The notes below the pieces were generated by a model that saw only the letters and a list, made by a program, of their open reading frames with translations, did no database searches and was not told where the DNA came from. Position numbers and translations under genes: made by a program. A stretch of 64,000 nt of DNA from Methyloterricola oryzae (GTDB lineage Bacteria > Pseudomonadota > Gammaproteobacteria > Methylococcales > Methylococcaceae): NCBI RefSeq assembly GCF_000934725.1, contig NZ_JYNS01000001.1:682001-746000 (forward strand). The letters are read 5' to 3'. Shown in pieces: positions 507 through 33,299 of this stretch. The first letter of the stretch is position 1, and every line of letters begins with the position of its first letter.

Positions 507-1625
507 TCAAGCCTCGCGGGAATAAACCCGGTTCTTCCAACGGCTGCGCTCGCCCCGCCAATAGCGCAGGGCCGATGTCCAGGTCATGGCCAGGTAGAGG
601 CTGGCGATCACCGGCATGGCGAGCGCCCAAAGGGGGTTGCGCCGGTAGAAATTCAGCGTGGGTAGATACGCGACCAGCATGCCCGCCAGCCCCAATGCGG
701 AGAGACTTCGCGCCATGGGGTCTGCGGCGGCCAAGCCAGCAACCGGCCCCCAGAACATCAACACCATCAGAAAGGTGCAGGTTGCCAACAGGGTGATCGA
801 GTAGCGCAACTGAGTGAAGGCGGTGCGCGCCACCATTTCCCAAATCGGCTCGAGGTCACCGTAGCCGCGCAGGCTGACCACGCCGTGAGACTGCCCTGTC
901 CAGGTACGGTAGCCCGCCTGCTTGACCTTGGCGGCCAGGGTGCAGTCGTCGATGATGGCGCCGCGGATCGCGTCGAAGCCGCCGAGTTCGCGCAACACGC
1001 CGGTTTCCACCAGAATGCACCCCCCCGCTGCCGAGGCGAAGCGTGGATTGGCGGAATTGGCCAGGCGGAAGGGATATAACTGTTTGAAGAAATAGATGAA
1101 CGCCGGCATCAGGAGCTTTTCCCAGAATGTCTCCATGCGCAGACTGGCCATCAGGGACACGAAAACAGGGCCGACCCGCATGCGCTCCAACAGGGCGGCC
1201 AGCATGCCGGGGGCGAGGTGGATATCCGCATCCAGCAGCAGAGTGTAAGGCGTCTCCACCTTGCGCAAGCCCTGCTCCAGAGCCCACAGCTTGCCGCTCC
1301 AGCCTTCCGGCAGCGGCGCGCCGGCCAGCACGCTCAGGTCCAGGCCCGGCACCTGGCTGGCAAGGTCGGCAGTGCCGTCGCTGGAACCGTCATCCACCAG
1401 AATGACCCGCGGCGACCCTCCTTGCTGGGCGAGGCCTTCCAGGGTGGACTGGATGACTTCGGCCTCGTCTCGCGCTGGAATCAGCACGGTGATTTCATCG
1501 GAAGACGCCGGGGCGTCTGGCGATGGCTCCAGAATCTCCCCGTTGCGCCAAGGACGCCAGGGCAAAAGCAGGGTTGCGGTCCAGATCAGGGCCGCCGCGG
1601 CGGACGGCAGGAGGGAGGGCGCCAT
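507..1625 (-). CDS. hpnB: Hopanoid-associated glycosyltransferase HpnB
   Basis: Family 2 (GT-A) glycosyltransferase of the hopene-associated HpnB type, 372 residues from the ATG at 1625. A membrane segment at residues 5-22 is followed by the nucleotide-sugar domain with ITVLIPARDEAEVI, the acidic LLLDADIHLAPG metal-binding motif and GGFDAIRGAIIDDCTLA. Several hydrophobic segments close the C-terminus. An in-frame TTG at 1649 would add eight residues, but it lies inside the T-run of a terminator, so the ATG is preferred. Neither start has a convincing ribosome site. Its position beside hpnH supports a role in hopanoid side-chain modification; the exact sugar acceptor is not shown by the sequence. 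Confidence 0.85.
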   Translation of the reverse strand: MAPSLLPSAAAALIWTATLLLPWRPWRNGEILEPSPDAPASSDEITVLIPARDEAEVIQSTLEGLAQQGGSPRVILVDDGSSDGTADLASQVPGLDLSVLAGAPLPEGWSGKLWALEQGLRKVETPYTLLLDADIHLAPGMLAALLERMRVGPVFVSLMASLRMETFWEKLLMPAFIYFFKQLYPFRLANSANPRFASAAGGCILVETGVLRELGGFDAIRGAIIDDCTLAAKVKQAGYRTWTGQSHGVVSLRGYGDLEPIWEMVARTAFTQLRYSITLLATCTFLMVLMFWGPVAGLAAADPMARSLSALGLAGMLVAYLPTLNFYRRNPLWALAMPVIASLYLAMTWTSALRYWRGERSRWKNRVYSREA

Positions 1626-1647
1626 TGAAAGCCGGGACAGGTCAGTC

Positions 1648-1686
1648 AAAAAAACGGCCCGCCCCCGAAAAACGGGAAGCGGGCCG
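1648..1686 (-). terminator. Intrinsic terminator downstream of hpnH
   Basis: An 8-bp perfect stem, CGGCCCGC (1655-1662) with GCGGGCCG (1679-1686), is followed on the minus strand by seven T (1654-1648). It starts 16 bases after the hpnH stop and its T-run ends 22 bases before the hpnB ATG, so hpnB would depend on read-through or a promoter inside hpnH. Confidence 0.8.
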
Positions 1687-1701: not shown

Positions 1702-2814
1702 TTAATCGATCGCGCGGATCGGGATCACCGGGCGCGGAACCGCCTCACCTTCGGGCTGCTTGACCTCCCATTCCGGCACCGGCTCCGGCGCCATAGGACC
1801 CTCGGTGCGCGGGCCGCGGATGGCCGCCCAGGCCGCCTTGAGCGGGTTGCGAATGGAGTCTTCCGCCGCCGTCGCTTCGAAACCGCAGTGGGCCATGCAG
1901 TTGGCGCACTTGGGGTTCTTGGAGTTGCCGTACTTGTGCCAGGGCGTCTCGTCCATCAGGGCCTTGAAGCTGGGCGCGTAGCCCTCATCCACCAGCAGGT
2001 AGCAGGGCTTCTGCCAACCGAAGATGTTGCGGGTCGGGTTGCCCCACGGGGTGCAGTTGTAGCTCTGGTTGCCGGCCAGGAAGTCCAGATAGAGGCTGGA
2101 GTGGTTCAGCTTCCAGTCGCGGCCCTTGCCCAATTTGAACACCTTGCGGAACAGTTCCTTGCTCTCGCGCATCTTGATGAAGATGTTCTGCAGCGGGGCA
2201 TGCTCGTAGCTGAAGCCCGGGGCAATGGTCACGCCCTCGACACCCAGCTGCTTGGTGTAATCCAGGAATTCCGCCACTTCTTCCGCCGACTCGCCCTGGA
2301 ACAGGGTGCAGTTGACGGTGACGCGGAAGCCTTTCTCGATGGCCAGCTTGATGACCTCCACCGCGCGGTCGAAAACACCGCTCTGGCACACCGAGGCATC
2401 GTGGCGTTCCTGGTTGCCATCCAGATGGATGGAGAAGGTCAGGTAGGGCGACGGCTTGTAGTCGTCCATGCGCTTCTTCAGAAGGAGCGCATTGGTGCAC
2501 AGATACACATACTTCTTGCGGGCGATGATGCCCTCCACCACCTGGGGCAATTCCTTGTGCAGCAGCGGCTCGCCACCGGCGATGGAGACGATGGGCGCGC
2601 CGCACTCGTCCACTGCCGCCAGGCAGTCCTCCACGCTCAAGCGGCGATTCAGGATCTCGTCGGGGTAGTCGATCTTGCCGCAGCCGGCGCAGGCCAGGTT
2701 GCATCTAAACAACGGCTCCAGCATGAGCACCAAAGGATAGCGGCGCACGCCCTTCAGTTTCTGCTTGAGCAGATAGCTGGCGACGCTGATCTGTTGACGT
2801 AATGGAACGCTCAT
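1702..2814 (-). CDS. hpnH: Adenosylhopane synthase, radical SAM protein HpnH
   Basis: Radical SAM enzyme, 370 residues. In characterised hopanoid producers HpnH joins the 5'-deoxyadenosyl group of SAM to hopene to give adenosylhopane, the first step of side-chain building. The [4Fe-4S] motif CNLACAGC is at residues 38-45 (C38, C42, C45). The SAM-binding glycine-rich stretch SIAGGEPLLHKELP follows, and the C-terminal half carries extra cysteines in NCTPWGNP, KPCYLL and CANCMAHC, typical of the HpnH family with its DUF3463-type tail. The gene begins with ATG at 2814, with TAAACAGGAGATAAC giving an AGGAG site just upstream. It diverges from the sqs-shc operon. Recognition is strong. Confidence 0.95.
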   Translation of the reverse strand: MSVPLRQQISVASYLLKQKLKGVRRYPLVLMLEPLFRCNLACAGCGKIDYPDEILNRRLSVEDCLAAVDECGAPIVSIAGGEPLLHKELPQVVEGIIARKKYVYLCTNALLLKKRMDDYKPSPYLTFSIHLDGNQERHDASVCQSGVFDRAVEVIKLAIEKGFRVTVNCTLFQGESAEEVAEFLDYTKQLGVEGVTIAPGFSYEHAPLQNIFIKMRESKELFRKVFKLGKGRDWKLNHSSLYLDFLAGNQSYNCTPWGNPTRNIFGWQKPCYLLVDEGYAPSFKALMDETPWHKYGNSKNPKCANCMAHCGFEATAAEDSIRNPLKAAWAAIRGPRTEGPMAPEPVPEWEVKQPEGEAVPRPVIPIRAID

Positions 2815-3019
2815 TTGTGTTATCTCCTGTTTAGACCTGATTCGATTGCGCGTGGTCTTACCATTGTGGCCATGCTGCTCCCCGCCCTGGTTCGGTTCGC
2901 TGGCAGCATCCCGAAATTTTAGCCTCTCTGATAAACCCTTATTTTATAAAGGAGAATCAGCGCCTTCGGGACCCAGTTTCCACGCCTGGCCATATGATAG
3001 AACAAAAAAACCTCGATTA

Positions 3020-3057
3020 GTTGTATTTTACTCCAAATTTATTCGCTAAAATACAAC
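3020..3057. promoter_or_regulatory. Perfect 11-bp inverted repeat, candidate operator of the hopanoid genes
   Basis: GTTGTATTTTA (3020-3030) is exactly mirrored by TAAAATACAAC (3047-3057) with a 16-base spacer. It lies five bases upstream of the -35 box facing sqs. Because of its symmetry it also offers a TTGTAT/TAAAAT pair with 19-base spacing on each strand. It could be the binding site of a dimeric regulator or a pair of weak divergent promoters. No regulator gene is nearby. Confidence 0.55.
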
Positions 3058-3062
3058 ACAAC

Positions 3063-3090
3063 TTGATCCCTTAGCGGAAAACGATAGAAT
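3063..3090 (+). promoter_or_regulatory. Sigma-70-like promoter for sqs-shc-hpnGNO
   Basis: TTGATC (3063-3068) and TAGAAT (3085-3090) with a 16-base spacer match the -35 (4 of 6) and -10 (5 of 6) consensus. The transcript would have a leader of about 130 bases before the sqs ATG. Confidence 0.5.
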
Positions 3091-3227
3091 TTTCTGACTT
3101 TTATGGCGACCCAGACATTTCAGACCTTCGTAAAGCGGATTGGGTGTTTCCGCAACAGCACGCCGCGGGCCCGCCGGGCTGGCATGAGCGGCGCGCCGCT
3201 CGGGCGCGCGAAGACGATCGGAGCCGC

Positions 3228-4343
3228 ATGAACGGAAGCCAGACCTTGAATCAGGACCCCGCGCGCCTGGACGCGCTGCCGGACGATGCCTTGCAAGCCG
3301 AGTTGCTTGAAGGCGTCTCGCGCACCTTCGCCCTGACCATTCCGCAGTTGCCGGAAGGCCTGGCCAAGCCAGTGTCCAATGCCTATCTCTTGTGCCGCAT
3401 CGTCGACACCATCGAGGATGAGGTGGCGCTCAGCTCTCAGCAGAAGCGCGAGTTCTGCCAGCGCTTCATCGCCGTGGTGGCGGGCGATGCCCATCCGGCG
3501 GCGCTGGCCGCTGATCTCGCGCCCCTGCTCTCGGAGCAGACCATTCCCGCCGAGCACGAGCTGATCCGGCTGATTCCCCGCGTCATCGCCATCACCCACC
3601 AGTTCGAAGCGGCCCAGCGCGACGCCCTGACCCTTTGCGTGCGCATTATGGGCAAGGGCATGGCGGAATTCCAGGATCGCGACCTGCGCCACGGCCTCGC
3701 CACCATGGACGAGATGAGCGACTACTGCTATTACGTCGCCGGCGTGGTGGGCGAGATGCTGACCCGGCTGTTCTGCCACTATTCCCCGGAGATCGCCGTC
3801 CATCGCGAACTGCTCATGCGTCTGGCCGTGTCCTTCGGCCAAGGCCTGCAGATGACCAACATCCTCAAGGACCTCTGGGACGACCACGGCCGCGAGGTGT
3901 GCTGGCTGCCGCGGGAGATATTCCAGGCCCACGGCTTCGATCTGTCCACGCTTCGGCCCGGCCACGGCGACGCGCGTTTCTGCGCCGGCTTCCGCGACCT
4001 GATCGGCATCGCCCACGCGCATTTGCACAACGCCCTGGAATACACCCTGCTGATCCCCAGTCACGAGACCGGCCTGCGGGAATTCTGCCTGTGGGCACTG
4101 GGCATGGCGGTGCTGACCCTGCGCAAGATCAACCAGAACATCCATTTCAGCGAGTCGGCCCAGGTGAAGATCACGCGGCGCAGCGTGAAAACCACCATCA
4201 TCGTCAGCCGCCTGACCCGGCGCAGCGATTTGCTGCTGCGAGCCGCCTTTGCCGTGGCGGCCTCCGGATTGCCGGCGCCGGACCCGCAGGTCCTGGCCCT
4301 CGCCAAATCAGATCAATCTTTGAGAAGCCATTCCAGCCATTAA
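3228..4343 (+). CDS. sqs: Squalene synthase (squalene/phytoene synthase family)
   Basis: Condenses two farnesyl diphosphates to squalene, the substrate of the cyclase encoded next. The 371-residue protein has the first Asp-rich motif DTIED near residue 57 and a second, NILKDLWDD, near residue 210. The stretch SDYCYYVAGVVGEMLTRLF resembles the single-enzyme eukaryote-type squalene synthases more than the bacterial HpnC/HpnD pair. No HpnC, HpnD or HpnE gene is seen in the window, which agrees with a one-enzyme route. The ATG at 3228 is preferred to an earlier in-frame start at 3144, because the added residues are Arg/Ala-rich filler and GGAG sits at 3220-3223. It is 13 bases upstream of shc in one operon. 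Confidence 0.88.
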   Translation: MNGSQTLNQDPARLDALPDDALQAELLEGVSRTFALTIPQLPEGLAKPVSNAYLLCRIVDTIEDEVALSSQQKREFCQRFIAVVAGDAHPAALAADLAPLLSEQTIPAEHELIRLIPRVIAITHQFEAAQRDALTLCVRIMGKGMAEFQDRDLRHGLATMDEMSDYCYYVAGVVGEMLTRLFCHYSPEIAVHRELLMRLAVSFGQGLQMTNILKDLWDDHGREVCWLPREIFQAHGFDLSTLRPGHGDARFCAGFRDLIGIAHAHLHNALEYTLLIPSHETGLREFCLWALGMAVLTLRKINQNIHFSESAQVKITRRSVKTTIIVSRLTRRSDLLLRAAFAVAASGLPAPDPQVLALAKSDQSLRSHSSH

Positions 4344-4356
4344 GAGGACCTTACCC

Positions 4357-6336
4357 ATGCTGAAAGACACAAGCACATTTGCTGGCCTGGATTCCGCCTT
4401 CGCGGGCATGTACCAACAATTCAAGCAGGCGCCTTTGGACGGCGCCATCAGCCGCGCCAAGGACCACCTACTGTCCCTGCAGCAGGGCGACGGGCACTGG
4501 GTGTTCGAACTGGAGGCAGACTGCACCATCCCCTCCGAGTACATCCTGATGATGCACTACATGGCCGACATCGACGAGTCGCTGCAGGCCAAGATCGCCA
4601 ACTATCTGCGCCGCTGGCAGAGCCAGGACGGCAGCTATCCGCTGTTCCAGGGCGGGGCCGGCGACATTTCCTGCACCATCAAGGCCTACTACGCCCTGAA
4701 GATGGCGGGCGATTCCATCGACGCGCCGCACATGCAGAAGGCGCGCGAGTGGATCCTGGCCCAGGGCGGCGCCGCCAAGGCCAACGTGTTCACCCGCATC
4801 ATGCTGGCCATGTTCGAGCAGATTCCCTGGCGCGGCGTGCCCTTCATTCCGGTGGAGATCATGCTGCTGCCCAAGTGGTTCCCCTTTCATCTGGACAAGG
4901 TGTCCTACTGGTCGCGCACCGTGATGGTGCCCTTGTTCATCCTCTGCTCCTACAAGGTGAAGGCGCGTAATCCGCACCAGGTTCACGTGCGCGAACTGTT
5001 CGTAACGCCGCCGGAACTGGAGAAGAACTACTTCTCCCACGTCACCACCCCGCTGGGCAAGGCGATCCTGGGCCTTGAGCGCTTCGGCCGCCTGCTGGAG
5101 CCCCTGATTCCGGGCTTCGTGCGCAAGAAGGCGACGGAAAAGGCCCGCGATTGGTTCCTGGAGCGCCTCAACGGCTACGACGGCCTGGGCGCCATCTTCC
5201 CGGCGATGGTCAACGCTTATGAAGCCATGGACTACCTCGGCTTCCCCAAGGACGACGAGCGCGTGCGCGTGGCCCGCGAGGCCATCGACCGCCTGCTGGT
5301 TATCGACGGCGACAGCGCCTACTGCCAGCCCTGCGTCTCCCCCATCTGGGACACCGGCCTGGCCGCCCTGGCGCTGCAGGAAGTCGATCGTTACGAGCAG
5401 GACGACACCACCCGCGAGCAGCTCAAGCATGCCCTGCGCTGGCTGGCCAGCAAGCAGCTCAGCGACGAACCGGGCGACTGGCAGGTGAAACGTCCCAACC
5501 TGCCGGGCGGCGGCTGGGCCTTCCAGTACGGCAATAGCTGGTATCCCGACGTGGACGATTCCGCGGTGGTCGCCCATGCCCTGTATCAAGCCCAGGACAG
5601 CGAATTCGACGAGAACGTGCAGCGCGCGGGGGTGTGGATCGGCGGAATGCAGTCCAGCAACGGCGGCTACGGCGCCTTTGACGTGGACAACACCCACTAT
5701 TACCTCAACTACATTCCCTTCGCCGACCACGGCGCCCTGCTGGACCCGCCCACCGCGGACGTCAGCGGCCGCTGCCTGATGTTCCTCGGCAAGCTCTCGG
5801 AGAAGCAGCCCGAGTACCGCCCGCTGATGGAGCGCTGCATCGCCTATCTGCGCAAGGAGCAGGAAGCGGACGGCTCCTGGTTCGGGCGCTGGGGCACCAA
5901 CTACATCTACGGCACCTGGTCCGTGCTGCTGGGCTATGAAACCGCGGGCGTGCCCAAGGACGATCCGAGCGTGCGCCGCGCCGTGGCCTGGCTCAAGTCC
6001 AAGCAGCGCGCCGACGGCGGCTGGGGCGAGGACAACTACACCTACCACGACACGCGTCCCGAACTGCGCGGCGAGTTCCACACCAGCACCGCGTTCCAGA
6101 CCGGCCTGGCGCTGATGGCGTTGCTGGCCGCTGGCGAGGCGGAATCGCCGGAAGTCGAGGCGGGCGTCGAATTCCTGCTGAAAAACCAGCAGGCGGACGG
6201 TTTCTGGAAGGATGAGTGCTTCACCGCCCCCGGCTTCCCCAAGGTGTTCTATCTGAAGTACCACGGCTACGACAAATTCTTCCCGCTGTGGGCCCTGGCG
6301 CGCTACCGTAACGAGCGTTACGCGTTTGCCGCGTGA
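4357..6336 (+). CDS. shc: Squalene-hopene cyclase
   Basis: Cyclises squalene to hopene/hopanol at the membrane, the committed hopanoid step. The 659-residue length is normal for the family. The protonating motif appears as DVDD at residues 398-401. Several QW repeats are visible, for example QQGDGHW near the N-terminus and QEADGSW, QRADGGW and QQADGFW near the C-terminus. The ATG at 4357 is preceded by AGAGGA at nine bases. The stop codon overlaps the hpnG start by four bases, so the two genes are translationally coupled. Confidence 0.97.
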   Translation: MLKDTSTFAGLDSAFAGMYQQFKQAPLDGAISRAKDHLLSLQQGDGHWVFELEADCTIPSEYILMMHYMADIDESLQAKIANYLRRWQSQDGSYPLFQGGAGDISCTIKAYYALKMAGDSIDAPHMQKAREWILAQGGAAKANVFTRIMLAMFEQIPWRGVPFIPVEIMLLPKWFPFHLDKVSYWSRTVMVPLFILCSYKVKARNPHQVHVRELFVTPPELEKNYFSHVTTPLGKAILGLERFGRLLEPLIPGFVRKKATEKARDWFLERLNGYDGLGAIFPAMVNAYEAMDYLGFPKDDERVRVAREAIDRLLVIDGDSAYCQPCVSPIWDTGLAALALQEVDRYEQDDTTREQLKHALRWLASKQLSDEPGDWQVKRPNLPGGGWAFQYGNSWYPDVDDSAVVAHALYQAQDSEFDENVQRAGVWIGGMQSSNGGYGAFDVDNTHYYLNYIPFADHGALLDPPTADVSGRCLMFLGKLSEKQPEYRPLMERCIAYLRKEQEADGSWFGRWGTNYIYGTWSVLLGYETAGVPKDDPSVRRAVAWLKSKQRADGGWGEDNYTYHDTRPELRGEFHTSTAFQTGLALMALLAAGEAESPEVEAGVEFLLKNQQADGFWKDECFTAPGFPKVFYLKYHGYDKFFPLWALARYRNERYAFAA

Positions 6337-7061
6337 ATCGGGTCGGAATCGTCGTCGCCCTGGAGGCTGAAGGCCGCACCCTCACACCCAGGCCACCCAA
6401 GGCAGGCGAGTGCCTGGCGCTGGAGGGTGGTGGCCTGCTGATCGTCTCCGACGCGGGTCCGGTGGCGGCGGCCCGCGCCGCCGACCGCTTATTGGAAAAC
6501 GGCGCCGACGCCCTCGTGAGCTGGGGATGCGCCGCCGCGCTGGACCCGGGCCTGAGACCCGGCGATCTGGTTCTGCCCCGGGTCCTGCACGGGGCCGACG
6601 GGAGCGAACTGACCCTCGCCGCCGACTGGGTTGAACAGTTAAAATCCAGCCTGGCGACATCGGATCTTTCCATCCGCGAGGGAGCCATCGCCGAAAGCCG
6701 CGGCATCGTCGCCACGGTCGCTGCGAAAGCCGCACTGTTCGCCGCGACCGGTGCGCTCGCGGTGGACATGGAAAGCGCCGCCGTGGCGCGCAGCGCGGCG
6801 GCGCGTGGCCTCCCTGCCCTGGTCGTGCGCAGCATCGTCGACCCTGCCAGCATCGAAATACCGCCTGCTGTCCAGAACGCTTTCGATGGCGGCGGACACT
6901 TGCGATTGACTTCGCTCCTGGCCGGGCTGGCTCGCCGCCCCTGGGAGATCGCCGGACTGATTCAATTGGGCTGGCATTTCCGCGCCGCCATGCAGACCTT
7001 GCGGAAGGTCGGTGCACATTTCTCGGCAGCGCCGGCCGACCTGACTCACTCCACCCGCTGA
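6333..7061 (+). CDS. hpnG: Adenosylhopane nucleosidase/phosphorylase HpnG
   Basis: Purine nucleoside phosphorylase-like protein of 242 residues. HpnG removes adenine from adenosylhopane to give ribosylhopane, the step after HpnH. Family features are GIVVALEAEGRTL at the N-terminus, the VSDAGPVAAARAADRLL segment, SWGCAAALDPGLRPGDLVLP, and LAVDMESAAVARSAA, which carries the conserved Met-Glu of the purine and ribose site. It starts with GTG inside the GTGA overlap with the shc stop. hpnH is on the opposite strand at the far side of the shared promoter, so the two consecutive steps are divergently expressed. Confidence 0.92.
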   Translation: MNRVGIVVALEAEGRTLTPRPPKAGECLALEGGGLLIVSDAGPVAAARAADRLLENGADALVSWGCAAALDPGLRPGDLVLPRVLHGADGSELTLAADWVEQLKSSLATSDLSIREGAIAESRGIVATVAAKAALFAATGALAVDMESAAVARSAAARGLPALVVRSIVDPASIEIPPAVQNAFDGGGHLRLTSLLAGLARRPWEIAGLIQLGWHFRAAMQTLRKVGAHFSAAPADLTHSTR

Positions 7062-7095: not shown

Positions 7096-9723
7096 ATGCG
7101 CAAAACAACCTACGCCTTTGTCGTCAAGATCATCCATTGGTGGGAAGCCAACGTCCTGAGGCATCCCTGGACCCTGCTCCTGTTGGTCATCATCACCTGC
7201 GGCGCGGTCGGCAAATACACCGCCGACAACCTGACCATGAACACCAACACGGCGGACTCCATCTCCACCTCGGTGCCGTTCCAGCAGAACCGCATCAAGC
7301 TGGAAACGGCGTTTCCGCAGGATGTCAGCACGGTGCTGCTGCTGGTGGAAGGCAAGTCGCCGGAACTGACGGCGGAGGCGGTGAAGCGCATCGGCGCCGA
7401 ACTGCGGCAGCGCAGCGATGTCATCAAGTCCGTCTACATCCCGGACGAAGGCGACTTCTTCGCCCGCAATGGCATGCTCTATCTGAGCCTGCCGGAACTG
7501 GAAAACCTGTCCAAGCAGTTGGCCAATGCCCAGCCCTTCATCGGCCGACTGTCCCAGGACAACAGCCTGCGCGGATTGCTGGATATCGTCGGCCAGGCGC
7601 TCAACGCCAAGGAAGACGACATCGCCATCGACATGAACCCGCTGCTGGGCAAGATTCGCGAGGCGATCCAGGCGGTGCAGGCGGGTCAGCCCTACCAGCT
7701 TTCCTGGCAGCAATTGATGCTGGACCAGAAGGATGGCCTGGGCCTGACCAAGCGCTTCATCATCATCACGCCCATCCTGGATTTCCAGGAACTGATGCCG
7801 GCGGAAAAGCCCATCACCGCCATCAAGGATGCAACCTCGAGCACCCTCACCGGTGACCTGGCGGAAACCCGCATCCGCATGACTGGCGAGGTCGTCCTGG
7901 AATACGAGGAGATGCTGACGGTGGAGAAGGGCATGGCGGTAGCCGGTGCGATCTCCATGGTCATGGTGTGCCTGACCCTGTGGATCGCTTACCGCTCCTT
8001 CAAGCTCATGTTCGCCACCTTCCTCACCCTGACGGTGGGCTTGGTGTATTCCATGGGCTTCGCCACGGTCGCCATTGGCCATCTCAACCTGATCTCAATT
8101 GCCTTCGCGGTGCTGTTCATCGGCATGGGCGACGCCTATTCCTCCCACTTCTGCCTGCGCTACCGGGAACTGGTGCTGCGCGGAGAATCGCAGACCCTGG
8201 CCCTGCGCGACACCCTGACTTCCACCGGCGCGGCCCTGATCCTGTGCACCCTCACCGCCGCCATCGGCCTGTACGCCTTCATCCCCACCAACTACGTGGG
8301 GGTGGCGGAACTGGGCGTCATCGCCGGCACCAGCATGTTCATCGCCCTGGCAACCACCTTTACCGTGCTGCCAGCCCTGATGAAGGTCATGCCGTACAAG
8401 CCTCCGCAAAAGAGCGGCAAGGGCAAGACCCTGGCGATCCTAGGCTCCAACTGGCCGCTACGCTATGCCCGCCCCATCCGCTGGATCACCGCCATTCTGG
8501 CGCTGGCCGCCCTGTTCCTGCTGAGCAAGGTGCAGGTCGACTTCAACCCCATCAACCTGCGCGATCCGGATACGGAGTCGGTGCAGACCTTCAAGTACTT
8601 GCTGCAGTCCCAGGACACCTCGCCCATGACCATGACGGCATTGGCGAGCAGCGAGGCCGACGCCAGGGAAAAGGCCGCGCGCTTCGAGCAATCGCCCCTG
8701 GTGGACAAGGTCGTCACCCTGTTTGACTTCATCCCCGAGGACCAGGAGCAGAAGCTGGCCATCATCGAGGACCTGGGCCTGCTGCTGGGCGGTCAGTTGC
8801 AGAATTTCCCGCCGCCGGCCGAGGGCGGCGTGCAGATGGCGACCCTGGACAAGTTCCAGAAAGCCCTGGACGAACGCCTGGCCAAGAAGGACGATCCCGC
8901 CGTGACCGCCCTGGCTGAAACCCTGGAGCAATTCCGCGAGCAGTTGCAGACGGAGGACCCGGCCACCCGCGAGGCCAGCCTGGACAAGCTGCAGGGCAGC
9001 CTGCTGAATTCCCTTCCCGCGACCATACACAACCTGTCCGAGGGCCTTCAGGCCAGCGAGATCAGCCTGGACTCCCTGCCTCCGGATCTGGTGGAGCGCT
9101 GGCGAAGTGCCAGCGGGCTATACCGAGTGCAGATCTTTCCCAAGAGGGACTTGAACGATTTGGAAAACCTGCGCGAATTCATCCTCGCAGGCCAGAAGAT
9201 CGACCCCAACGTCACCGACCTGCCGGTGACCTACCTGGAATCCATGGACGAGGTGGTGAAGGCATTCGAGCAGGCCTTCAGCATCGCCCTGGTGGCTATC
9301 AGCGTCCTGTTGTTGCTCATCCTGCGCAACATCAAGGACACCCTGCTGGTGCTTCTGCCCCTGCTGCTGGCCTCGCTGTTCACTGCGGCGGCAACGGTTC
9401 TGCTAGACGTGCCCTTCAATTTCGCCAACATCATCGCCCTACCCCTGCTGTTCGGCCTGGGCGTGGACAATGGCATCCACATGGCGCACCGCATGCACTA
9501 CCTGCAATCCAAGGACGACAATCTGCTGGGCACCAGCGAAGCGCTGGGGGTGTTCTACGGCTCCCTGACCACCATCTGGAGTTTTGGTAGCCTGGCGCTC
9601 ATGTCCCACAAGGGCACCTCATCCATGGGCATCCTGCTGGCCATCGGCCTGCTGCTTAGCCTGGTCTGCTCCCTGGTGGTGCTACCGGCCTTCAGCGCCC
9701 TCAAGTTCCGCCGCCGGGCCTGA
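7096..9723 (+). CDS. hpnN: Hopanoid transporter HpnN, RND/MMPL family
   Basis: Large inner-membrane protein of 875 residues that in other bacteria is needed to move hopanoids to the outer membrane. It has the RND double layout: one membrane segment at residues 20-42, a periplasmic loop, a block of five or more segments from about residue 275 to 430 (with LFIGMGDAYSSHF), one segment near residue 460, a second loop, and a final block from about 720 to 870 (with LLFGLGVDNGIHMAHR). The conserved acidic residues in GMGDAYSSH and GLGVDNGIH are where proton-coupled RND proteins have theirs. It lies 34 bases after hpnG and 46 before hpnO. The ribosome site is weak. Confidence 0.93.
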   Translation: MRKTTYAFVVKIIHWWEANVLRHPWTLLLLVIITCGAVGKYTADNLTMNTNTADSISTSVPFQQNRIKLETAFPQDVSTVLLLVEGKSPELTAEAVKRIGAELRQRSDVIKSVYIPDEGDFFARNGMLYLSLPELENLSKQLANAQPFIGRLSQDNSLRGLLDIVGQALNAKEDDIAIDMNPLLGKIREAIQAVQAGQPYQLSWQQLMLDQKDGLGLTKRFIIITPILDFQELMPAEKPITAIKDATSSTLTGDLAETRIRMTGEVVLEYEEMLTVEKGMAVAGAISMVMVCLTLWIAYRSFKLMFATFLTLTVGLVYSMGFATVAIGHLNLISIAFAVLFIGMGDAYSSHFCLRYRELVLRGESQTLALRDTLTSTGAALILCTLTAAIGLYAFIPTNYVGVAELGVIAGTSMFIALATTFTVLPALMKVMPYKPPQKSGKGKTLAILGSNWPLRYARPIRWITAILALAALFLLSKVQVDFNPINLRDPDTESVQTFKYLLQSQDTSPMTMTALASSEADAREKAARFEQSPLVDKVVTLFDFIPEDQEQKLAIIEDLGLLLGGQLQNFPPPAEGGVQMATLDKFQKALDERLAKKDDPAVTALAETLEQFREQLQTEDPATREASLDKLQGSLLNSLPATIHNLSEGLQASEISLDSLPPDLVERWRSASGLYRVQIFPKRDLNDLENLREFILAGQKIDPNVTDLPVTYLESMDEVVKAFEQAFSIALVAISVLLLLILRNIKDTLLVLLPLLLASLFTAAATVLLDVPFNFANIIALPLLFGLGVDNGIHMAHRMHYLQSKDDNLLGTSEALGVFYGSLTTIWSFGSLALMSHKGTSSMGILLAIGLLLSLVCSLVVLPAFSALKFRRRA

Positions 9724-11158: not shown

Positions 11159-11226
11159 GCCCGACACCGCGCGGGGACATCGATGTCCCCGCTCCCCCTT
11201 CGACTCCCTCAGCACAGGAAATACGC

Positions 11227-11616: not shown

Positions 11617-13263
11617 ATGTACATGCAAGGCCTGGCCAATTTCATCGACGACTTCCTGGGTGGTCTCATGCTCATCAGCTATGCGCTGGTGGTGGGCAGC
11701 ATCCTGTGGAGTTTCGTCATACTCAAGGTCACGACTGCGGAAGTCGCAGCGGAATCGGTGCTGAGTCGCAGCATCAAGGTGCTGCACATCGGCGCGGTAG
11801 CGCTGGCCGCCTCGGTGGGAACCAAGCTGGTGATCAAGGGCTTGGTGCTGGCTTCGACCCTGGGTGAATTGCCCCTGGGCGCCTACGCCGGCACGGTGCA
11901 GTTCCAGGCGGGCCTGCTGCGTTTCTTCCTGGCCCTGGGTTTCCTCTGGGCCACGCGCAAGCTATCCGAATCACCCGCCGATCCAACCGGTTGGAAAACC
12001 ACCCTGTGGCTGACCGTGCCCCTGGTGATCAGCGGCGCCTGGCTGGTCCACGCGGTGGGCCGCTTCGAGGAGCGCGCCCTGCTCATGGCCACCACCGTGG
12101 TGCACCAGTTCGCCGCCGCCGTCTGGTTCGGCTGTGTGGCTCAGCTTCTGGCCCTGTGGCGCGCCGCGCGCAAGGATGCCGACGCCCTCGCCCTGTGGCC
12201 CGTGGCCATAGGGCGTTTTGCCAACATGGGCATCGCCTCGGTGGTGTTGCTGCTGCTCACCGGCCTGCCCCTGGCCTGGGTCTATATCGGCAGCTGGGAT
12301 GGCCTGTTCGGCACCGGCTATGGCAGCCTGGTGGTCACCAAGGTCTGGCTGCTACTGGTGGCGCTGGGCTTCGCCTATCTGAACAACCGGGCGGGACGGC
12401 GCTGGCGCGAGAACCCGGGCGACAACACCCTCATCACCAAGGTGCCGTATTACATCGAAGCCGAGACCTTCATCCTCATCGGCATCCTGTTCATCGCCGC
12501 CACCCTGTCCTCCCAGCCCCCTTCGGTGGACATCCCGGACCGGACCGCGCAGGTTTCGGAAGTGATCAACATGTTCCTGCCCAGGGTCCCCAAGATCCAT
12601 TCCCCCAGCCACGAGGCCCTCATGGCCGGCGAGGCGGGCCGCGTGGCCGTGGTGGACAAGGTGCCTTCCGTCGCCGGACAGGAATGGTCAGACTACAACC
12701 ACAACGTGGCCGGGCTCTTCCTCACCGGCATGGGTATCTTTGCCATGCTGTCCTACGTGCGCCGCTTCCACTGGGCGCAGTATTGGCCACTGGGCTTTAT
12801 CGGATTGAGCATCTTCCTGTTCTTCCGCAGCGATGCCGAGACTTGGCCGTTGGGCCCCATCGGCTTCTGGGAGAGCACCTTCGGCAATGGCGAAGTGTTC
12901 CAGCACCGCATCGCCACGCTGCTGGCCTTCGTGCTGGGCTACATGGAACTGAAGGCGCGTACGCGGCCCGATGCCAAGAAGCTCCAGCACATCTTCCCGA
13001 TGCTGTGCGCCTTCGGCGGCATCCTGCTGCTGACCCATGCCCACGCGCAGTTCGAGTTGAAGAGCGAGTTCCTGATCCAGTCCACCCACACCACCATGGG
13101 CCTTTTGGCGGTGATAATGGCCAGCGGGCGCTGGCTGGAACTGCGCTTGGTCACGCCGGACGGCCAGAGCGCCGTCGAAGGCAGGATCGCCGGCTTCGTG
13201 GCCATCCTGGCCATGTTCATCATCGGCAACTTCCTGATGTTCTACCGCGAACCGCTGTACTAA
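11617..13263 (+). CDS. copD: CopD-family copper membrane protein with long C-terminal extension
   Basis: 548-residue polytopic membrane protein. The N-terminal part (about residues 1-300) has the eight or so segments of CopD, thought to carry copper across the inner membrane with CopC as partner. The C-terminal part (about 350-548) adds roughly six more segments with recurrent histidines in YNHNVAG, FQHRIATLL, THAHAQFE and STHTTMG, which might bind copper or heme. This tail is not part of ordinary CopD (about 300 residues). In-frame ATGs at 11617 and 11623 are both possible starts. It ends at the shared terminator facing the gene at 13356-14558. Confidence 0.85.
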   Translation: MYMQGLANFIDDFLGGLMLISYALVVGSILWSFVILKVTTAEVAAESVLSRSIKVLHIGAVALAASVGTKLVIKGLVLASTLGELPLGAYAGTVQFQAGLLRFFLALGFLWATRKLSESPADPTGWKTTLWLTVPLVISGAWLVHAVGRFEERALLMATTVVHQFAAAVWFGCVAQLLALWRAARKDADALALWPVAIGRFANMGIASVVLLLLTGLPLAWVYIGSWDGLFGTGYGSLVVTKVWLLLVALGFAYLNNRAGRRWRENPGDNTLITKVPYYIEAETFILIGILFIAATLSSQPPSVDIPDRTAQVSEVINMFLPRVPKIHSPSHEALMAGEAGRVAVVDKVPSVAGQEWSDYNHNVAGLFLTGMGIFAMLSYVRRFHWAQYWPLGFIGLSIFLFFRSDAETWPLGPIGFWESTFGNGEVFQHRIATLLAFVLGYMELKARTRPDAKKLQHIFPMLCAFGGILLLTHAHAQFELKSEFLIQSTHTTMGLLAVIMASGRWLELRLVTPDGQSAVEGRIAGFVAILAMFIIGNFLMFYREPLY

Positions 13264-13269
13264 TCCCGC

Positions 13270-13301
13270 AAAAAAGCCACCGGTCCTGGAACCGGTGGCT
13301 T
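13270..13301 (-). terminator. Intrinsic terminator of the OmpA-like lipoprotein gene, facing copD
   Basis: An 11-bp perfect stem, AAGCCACCGGT (13274-13284) and ACCGGTGGCTT (13291-13301), has a 6-base loop. On the minus strand it runs into six T (13275-13270). It lies between convergent genes and could also slow transcription coming out of copD. Confidence 0.85.
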
Positions 13302-33150: not shown

Positions 33151-33249
33151 CCTGGGACTCTGGAGTGCCAAAAGTCCGCTAGGTTAGCACAGGGACAGCA
33201 CCTGCGCGCGGCCGCTTTTGCGGCGAAGCCGGCGGGGGATATAAAACAG

Positions 33250-33273
33250 AAAAGGGGGGTTGCCCCCCCTTTT
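33250..33273 (-). terminator. Intrinsic terminator of the outer-membrane protein gene
   Basis: AAAAGGGGGG (33250-33259) and CCCCCCTTTT (33264-33273) form a 10-bp stem with a 4-base loop. The T-tract on the minus strand ends transcription of the gene at 33300. The structure is symmetric enough to work on both strands. Confidence 0.85.
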
Positions 33274-33299
33274 CTCGGACCGGTGTTCCGGCGAGGACC

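Follow-up and report, generated by a model that had tools for sequence, protein, structure and literature searches.

Hopanoids take the place of sterols in bacteria as their counterpart and are a main source of molecular fossils. How cells switch hopanoid synthesis, and when, is poorly understood. In alphaproteobacteria, EcfG controls hpnP. Among operators of long-spaced, inverted layout, that of the biotin repressor BirA consists of TTGTAAACC, about 16 nt and GGTTTACAA. Within a Streptomyces hopanoid operon, a possible termination or processing element has been reported (PMC8914203). The sites of LysR regulators are described as palindromes of the form T-N11-A that have their centre near −65 and overlap the divergent promoter (PMC4834489). 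A hopanoid operator in methanotrophs was not named in the titles and abstract openings covered by our literature search. Here we describe a candidate in a 64,000-nucleotide stretch of the Methyloterricola oryzae genome, hereafter the window, and its counterparts in related genomes.

RESULTS

An inverted repeat between hpnH and sqs

The hopanoid genes of the window form two divergent groups (Table 1). In the 413-base gap between hpnH and the inferred start of sqs lies an inverted repeat whose 11-bp arms, GTTGTATTTTA and TAAAATACAAC, are perfectly complementary and separated by a 16-nt spacer. The initial annotation of this DNA had pointed to a perfect 11-bp inverted repeat here, between hpnH and sqs–shc; our analysis recovered the same coordinates and the full complementarity of the arms, and the identities given to the neighbouring genes agree with their matches to family models. 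By itself the repeat is moderately unlikely and suggestive. When 5000 first-order Markov copies of the 413-base gap were generated, 0.24% of them held a perfect repeat with arms of at least 11 and a spacer of at most 30, and the whole window contains five of them (two overlap) as compared with 0–2 in each of 20 Markov copies. The pattern GTTGTATTTT-N18-AAAATACAAC, with up to three mismatches allowed, has its sole match in the 64-kb window at the repeat (3020–3057), and none was found in 100 shuffles. It is conservation that makes the repeat significant.

Other perfect inverted repeats occur in the window. That at 13274–13301 (AAGCCACCGGT, 11 bp, 6-nt loop) stands just past the end of a long frame on the plus strand (11617–13263) and is possibly a transcription terminator; further ones are found at 11171–11192 (GCGGGGACATC, without spacer) and at 33248–33275 (AGAAAAGGGGG, 6-nt spacer).

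Table 1. Hopanoid genes, predicted operator and inferred promoter elements, with positions in the window
Feature	Position	Strand	Remarks
hpnB, hopene-associated glycosyltransferase	507..1649	-	Downstream of hpnH; TIGR03469 above cut-off
hpnH, adenosyl-hopene transferase	1702..2814	-	TIGR03470 above cut-off
Inferred hpnH -10, TATCAT (minus strand)	2994..2999	-	20 nt from left arm
Predicted inverted-repeat operator, GTTGTATTTTA-N16-TAAAATACAAC	3020..3057	.	Conserved among relatives
Left half-site	3020..3030	.	GTTGYNTTTT in relatives; spans roughly -33 to -43 relative to the inferred start of hpnH (start deduced from the -10)
Inner element, CTCCAA	3031..3036	.	CTCAA, one base shorter, in nearly all relatives
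Right half-site	3047..3057	.	AAAANRCAAC in relatives; sqs -35 lies 5 nt downstream
Inferred sqs -35, TTGATC	3063..3068	+	TTGAC in most relatives
Inferred sqs -10, TAGAAT	3085..3090	+	Sigma-70-like site; conserved among relatives
sqs, squalene synthase	3228..4343	+	Start codon 3228 inferred; best model TIGR01559, below cut-off
shc, squalene-hopene cyclase	4357..6336	+	TIGR01507 above cut-off
hpnG, hopanoid-associated phosphorylase	6333..7061	+	TIGR03468 just above cut-off
hpnN, hopanoid-associated RND transporter	7096..9723	+	TIGR03480 above cut-off; NF052374 below its cut-off

Conservation within the family of the window

HpnH relatives were collected from 110 loci, some of which represent the same genome in two collections, and duplicate gaps were merged. 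The 32 distinct family gaps comprise all 24 same-family hpnH gaps and eight named-contig loci with an HpnH identity of at least 80%; this list was compiled after the arm-match scores were known, and the site in each gap is the best match to the arms. In 30 of the 32 gaps the site agrees at 15–20 of the 20 arm positions, and nine gaps, spread over six genera, match the arms perfectly. The 95th percentile of shuffled gaps (100 per gap) was 13–14. The four lowest accepted sites (L002, L006, L009 and L010; 15/20 each, with largest shuffle scores of 14–16) are not convincing individually; they stand 4–5 nt from a TTGAC −35 element. In two gaps (L023 and L027, score 13) the left arm is absent and the right half is kept.

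A profile was built from 29 gaps, leaving out L023 and L027, both without the left arm, and L010, a near copy of L009. Since many of its rows are close relatives, the counts do not represent independent events. GTTG and CAAC are invariant (29/29), partly by construction, because the sites were chosen by best arm match; the adjoining promoter played no part in the choice. The spacer between the 10-bp arms measures 16–19 nt across the family (18 in the window), with CTCAA kept inside. Symmetry is greatest in the outer arms, which also rank among the best-conserved parts of the site, and columns outside the site and the promoter elements mostly carry little information. Two exceptions past the right arm, both outside the named promoter elements, are conserved: a T at +43 (26/29) and a triplet rich in A (+21 to +23).

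Inferred promoters on both sides of the site

Within 2700–3400, the window contains a single sigma-70-like site, TTGATC-N16-TAGAAT (3063–3090, plus strand; chance expectation 0.4). The initial annotation had placed the repeat next to the only plausible promoter; it did not note the overlap with the inferred hpnH promoter. In 25 of the 29 profiled gaps, the sqs promoter was recognised 4–6 nt past the right arm, 5 nt in most; in the remaining four it was not recognised.

Two kinds of hpnH promoter were found on the minus strand. In 16 of the 29 gaps, TTGAG-N17-TAnnAT is present, such that CTCAA forms the −35 element and the left arm lies inside the promoter spacer. The second kind has TATCAT (8/29) or TAGAAT (4/29) 20 nt from the left arm, a distance at which the left arm overlaps the place of the −35 element; three of the four TAGAAT gaps also carry the first kind. 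The window and its nearest lineages lack the −10 element of the first kind and have that of the second at 20 nt. Neither pattern fits the gaps L022, L019, L006 and L009 (4/29). Both layouts would set the left arm on the putative core promoter of hpnH.

Copies per genome

Ten of the 38 family genomes contain the exact pattern, each at one site. A model built from 22 family gaps, on sequence alone, detected matches with E<0.01 in 32 of the 38, of which the genomes that supplied the model match by construction. All ten exact-match loci and all 30 loci kept from the model search are flanked by hpnH and sqs. Among the best 150 first-look candidates per genome, no second match better than E 0.006 was found in the 38 family genomes, which argues against a larger regulon in the window's family; weaker second matches are partial. 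As only the best 150 candidates (family) or 141 (sister family, under stricter filters) were scored per genome, weak extra sites may be missed.

Six family genomes gave no model match at E<0.01 (G007, G011, G020, G004, G001 and G015). The first of these, G007, was scored as 100% complete; it lacks the site and is the one among 25 family genomes that gave no full-length hpnH match. It has possibly lost hopanoids.

The sister family and a second copy before hpnN

Of the 33 gaps outside the family with sqs in reach, 28 carry TTNGCAACAAAACAAC-N5-TTTGCAAAATACCAACAAACAGTCTATTAT or close variants; the sister-family loci, some of which are also catalogued as Methylococcaceae, were selected with a pattern in which CAAC and TTGC are fixed, which makes these columns invariant by construction. 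The pattern is unmatched in the other five (L030, L050, L067, L088 and L092). Despite the mismatch, L050 and L067 have a near-identical element, and L030 has a family-like one (AAAAAACAAC, TTGACC, TAGAAT). Searched with a model of the block TTNGCAACAAAACAAC-N5-TTTGCAAAATACCAAC...TATTAT, 40 of 41 sister-family genomes had a match at E<1e-5, and the ten best loci, the ones checked, all lie between hpnH and sqs. The two families share the right half-site, an A-rich stretch followed by CAACA, as well as its spacing from the sqs promoter; in the sister family this half-site is part of an sqs promoter that is strongly conserved. The sister-family block contains two TTN-N9-CAAC boxes 21 bp apart, alike at 13 of 17 consensus positions (P 0.0036 in shuffles). 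Because the repeat is inverted in the window's family and direct in the sister family, the two may differ in their protein contacts.

In the sister-family locus L051 (gap position about 311), a further half-site-like stretch, TAAATACAACA or similar, precedes the sqs block by about 81 bp. Similar stretches are present in L055, L057, L061, L065 and L072; a stretch resembling TTTAAAT...CTGTTTTTGTTC often comes after them.

In all three genomes of genus g22, a weaker second match (E 1.9e-4 to 3.3e-4) lies upstream of an additional hpnN. The extra HpnN of G031 scores above the TIGR03480 cut-off and is 44% identical to the hpnN product of the window; its counterparts in G063 and G089 share 99% and 94% identity with it. 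As the g22 genomes also carry an HpnN gene about 4 kb from the sqs site, the second copy is a gain on a paralogue and, as far as shown, one event. A MarR-family gene (L174:1562-1996) is divergent from the extra hpnN.

DISCUSSION

The initial annotation had read the repeat as the site of a regulator within the divergent hopanoid promoter, to be checked by comparing the hpnH–sqs gaps of relatives. This comparison found both half-sites conserved across genera, 4–6 nt from a conserved sqs −35 element, and thereby supports the proposal, regulation itself being deduced from half-site conservation and position. The predicted operator also appears wider than first proposed, as judged from the overlap with the hpnH promoter, the CTCAA of the spacer, the half-site of the sister family and the second copy before hpnN. 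From its conservation, its position and its single strong copy per genome (within the limits of the search), we infer protein binding, the direction of control and the family of the protein, with differing confidence. That the repeat is a protein operator of one kind or another seems highly probable. The more specific reading, which we favour with some reserve, is that a hopanoid regulator of any fold acts on both promoters through a conserved operator. A dimer or tetramer would grip the outer half-sites GTTG... and ...CAAC. Its right half would stand just upstream of the sqs −35 element, a place from which activators touch RNA polymerase, while its left half would cover the core of the divergent hpnH promoter and block or retune hpnH. 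One binding event might in this manner set the making of hopene (sqs-shc-hpnG-hpnN) together with the extension of its side chain (hpnH-hpnB).

As to the type of protein, the family has two T-N11-A boxes about 21 bp apart, at about −68 and −48 relative to the inferred start of sqs, the former over the inferred hpnH promoter. Such boxes, with one near −65 over a divergent promoter, are a common LysR layout, which makes LysR the single likeliest type; even so, the proposal that a LysR protein reads the site is a tentative one. Across the family, TTG-N9-CAA is found on the left in 26 of the 29 gaps and TTN-N9-CAAC on the right in 26 of the 29, the window included in the latter. The left box of the window itself, TTG-N10-CAA, is one base too long and thus misses the LysR motif. 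A LysR-type tetramer at these boxes might activate sqs and block or retune hpnH. None of the 13 HTH_1 (LysR) matches of the genome falls in the window, and neither the LysR short list nor the MarR neighbour led to a regulator gene. Among the LysR loci compared (12 of the 13 matches of the window's genome; over six genomes, 5 of 50 loci lacked a usable frame), just two, L170 and L172, find a reciprocal best match in each of G014, G019, G008 and G031; in G007, L170 has one and L172 has none. L172 is probably CysB-like, and both loci are weak leads as candidate regulators.

About as likely as LysR, and equally tentative, is a real operator read by a regulator of another fold (MarR, TetR or response regulator), which would recognise the GTTGYNTTTT half-sites alone and leave the LysR-like boxes incidental. 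This would be consistent with the symmetry and conservation of the outer arms and with a spacer that varies by 3 nt. The inner CTCAA could then be explained as the hpnH −35 element: since it has that role in 16 of the 29 gaps, its conservation need not imply contact with a protein. However, CTCAA persists in lineages where no hpnH −10 element stands at the matching distance. A MarR-family gene does adjoin the second copy in genus g22, but its distribution is patchy. In a search of 41 genomes, which included only two of the sister family, close relatives were detected in two of the other 40 (G008 and G023, of the window's family; 65% and 63% identity), while further matches reached 33% in G035 and were weaker elsewhere, with 28% in the window's genome. 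With an identity of at least 63% in three of 41 genomes, its own included, this protein is not present wherever the site is, and it is therefore unlikely to be the general regulator.

Alternatively, promoter elements alone may have been conserved, the right arm being an A-rich, UP-like element, CTCAA the −35 element of hpnH and the symmetry of the arms incidental. In both families the A-rich right arm does lie just before the sqs −35 element, and TTGAG-N17-TAnnAT fits hpnH in 16 of the 29 gaps. We nevertheless regard this explanation as unlikely: the left GTTG is invariant in all 29 gaps, where sigma-70 contacts do not require it, and perfect 10-bp symmetry recurs in nine gaps from six genera.

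The outer TTGTA...TACAA and the long spacer also recall the BirA operator, of which the repeat could in principle be a diverged form with a similar layout. This is very improbable, as the arms of the window differ from TTGTAAACC and GGTTTACAA, the canonical pattern had no exact match in the 38 family genomes (a search run without a positive control), and the strong copies of the site that were checked all lie at hopanoid genes. Least credible of all is an RNA hairpin serving as leader or terminator: the arms could pair in RNA, but RNAalifold retains only four invariant pairs (−0.13 kcal/mol), a terminator-like site is absent from 2700–3400, the arms show no covariation (85.0% of cells paired, compared with 86.6% in shuffles, and 1 pair changed on both sides, compared with 2.2, with neither excess covariation nor compensatory arm changes), and both inferred starts lie outside the repeat, so that neither transcript would contain it.

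If the repeat is, as we favour, a protein operator acting on both promoters, it is tempting to extend the argument beyond the window. Our broadest proposal, to which we give slightly less than even weight, is that a dedicated, as yet undescribed hopanoid regulator, one and the same protein, serves two methanotroph families and perhaps the order. Its site would be present as one strong copy per genome at sqs–hpnH, copied once to the extra hpnN, and would couple the supply of squalene and hopene to side-chain extension and transport; between the families, the tandem boxes would have shifted against the promoter by a single 21-bp register. With a defined 38-bp site predicted to lie over two promoters, the control of hopanoids becomes directly testable. 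If methanotrophs do set their hopanoid levels through one regulator, this would lend a mechanism to the interpretation of hopane biomarkers.

Compared with described systems, the predicted operator would share with the EcfG control of hpnP the placing of a hopanoid gene under transcriptional control; the latter, however, operates through a sigma-factor promoter in another class of bacteria and not through an operator. Like the BirA operator of the biotin genes, it has long-spaced inverted arms that begin with TTGTA and lies between divergent operons, whereas the inner bases of the arms differ and the canonical form was not found in the family. The possible Streptomyces element (PMC8914203) is of a different nature. 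From the LysR scheme the locus departs in that the divergent gene is hpnH rather than the regulator, a LysR gene being absent from the window, and in that the left box of the window is one base long and the outer halves form a perfect inverted repeat. What the sites of the family would have in common with LysR divergent operators (PMC4834489), to judge from the inferred starts, is a palindromic T-N11-A box near −65 of the target start and over the divergent promoter, with a second contact beside the −35 element of the target.
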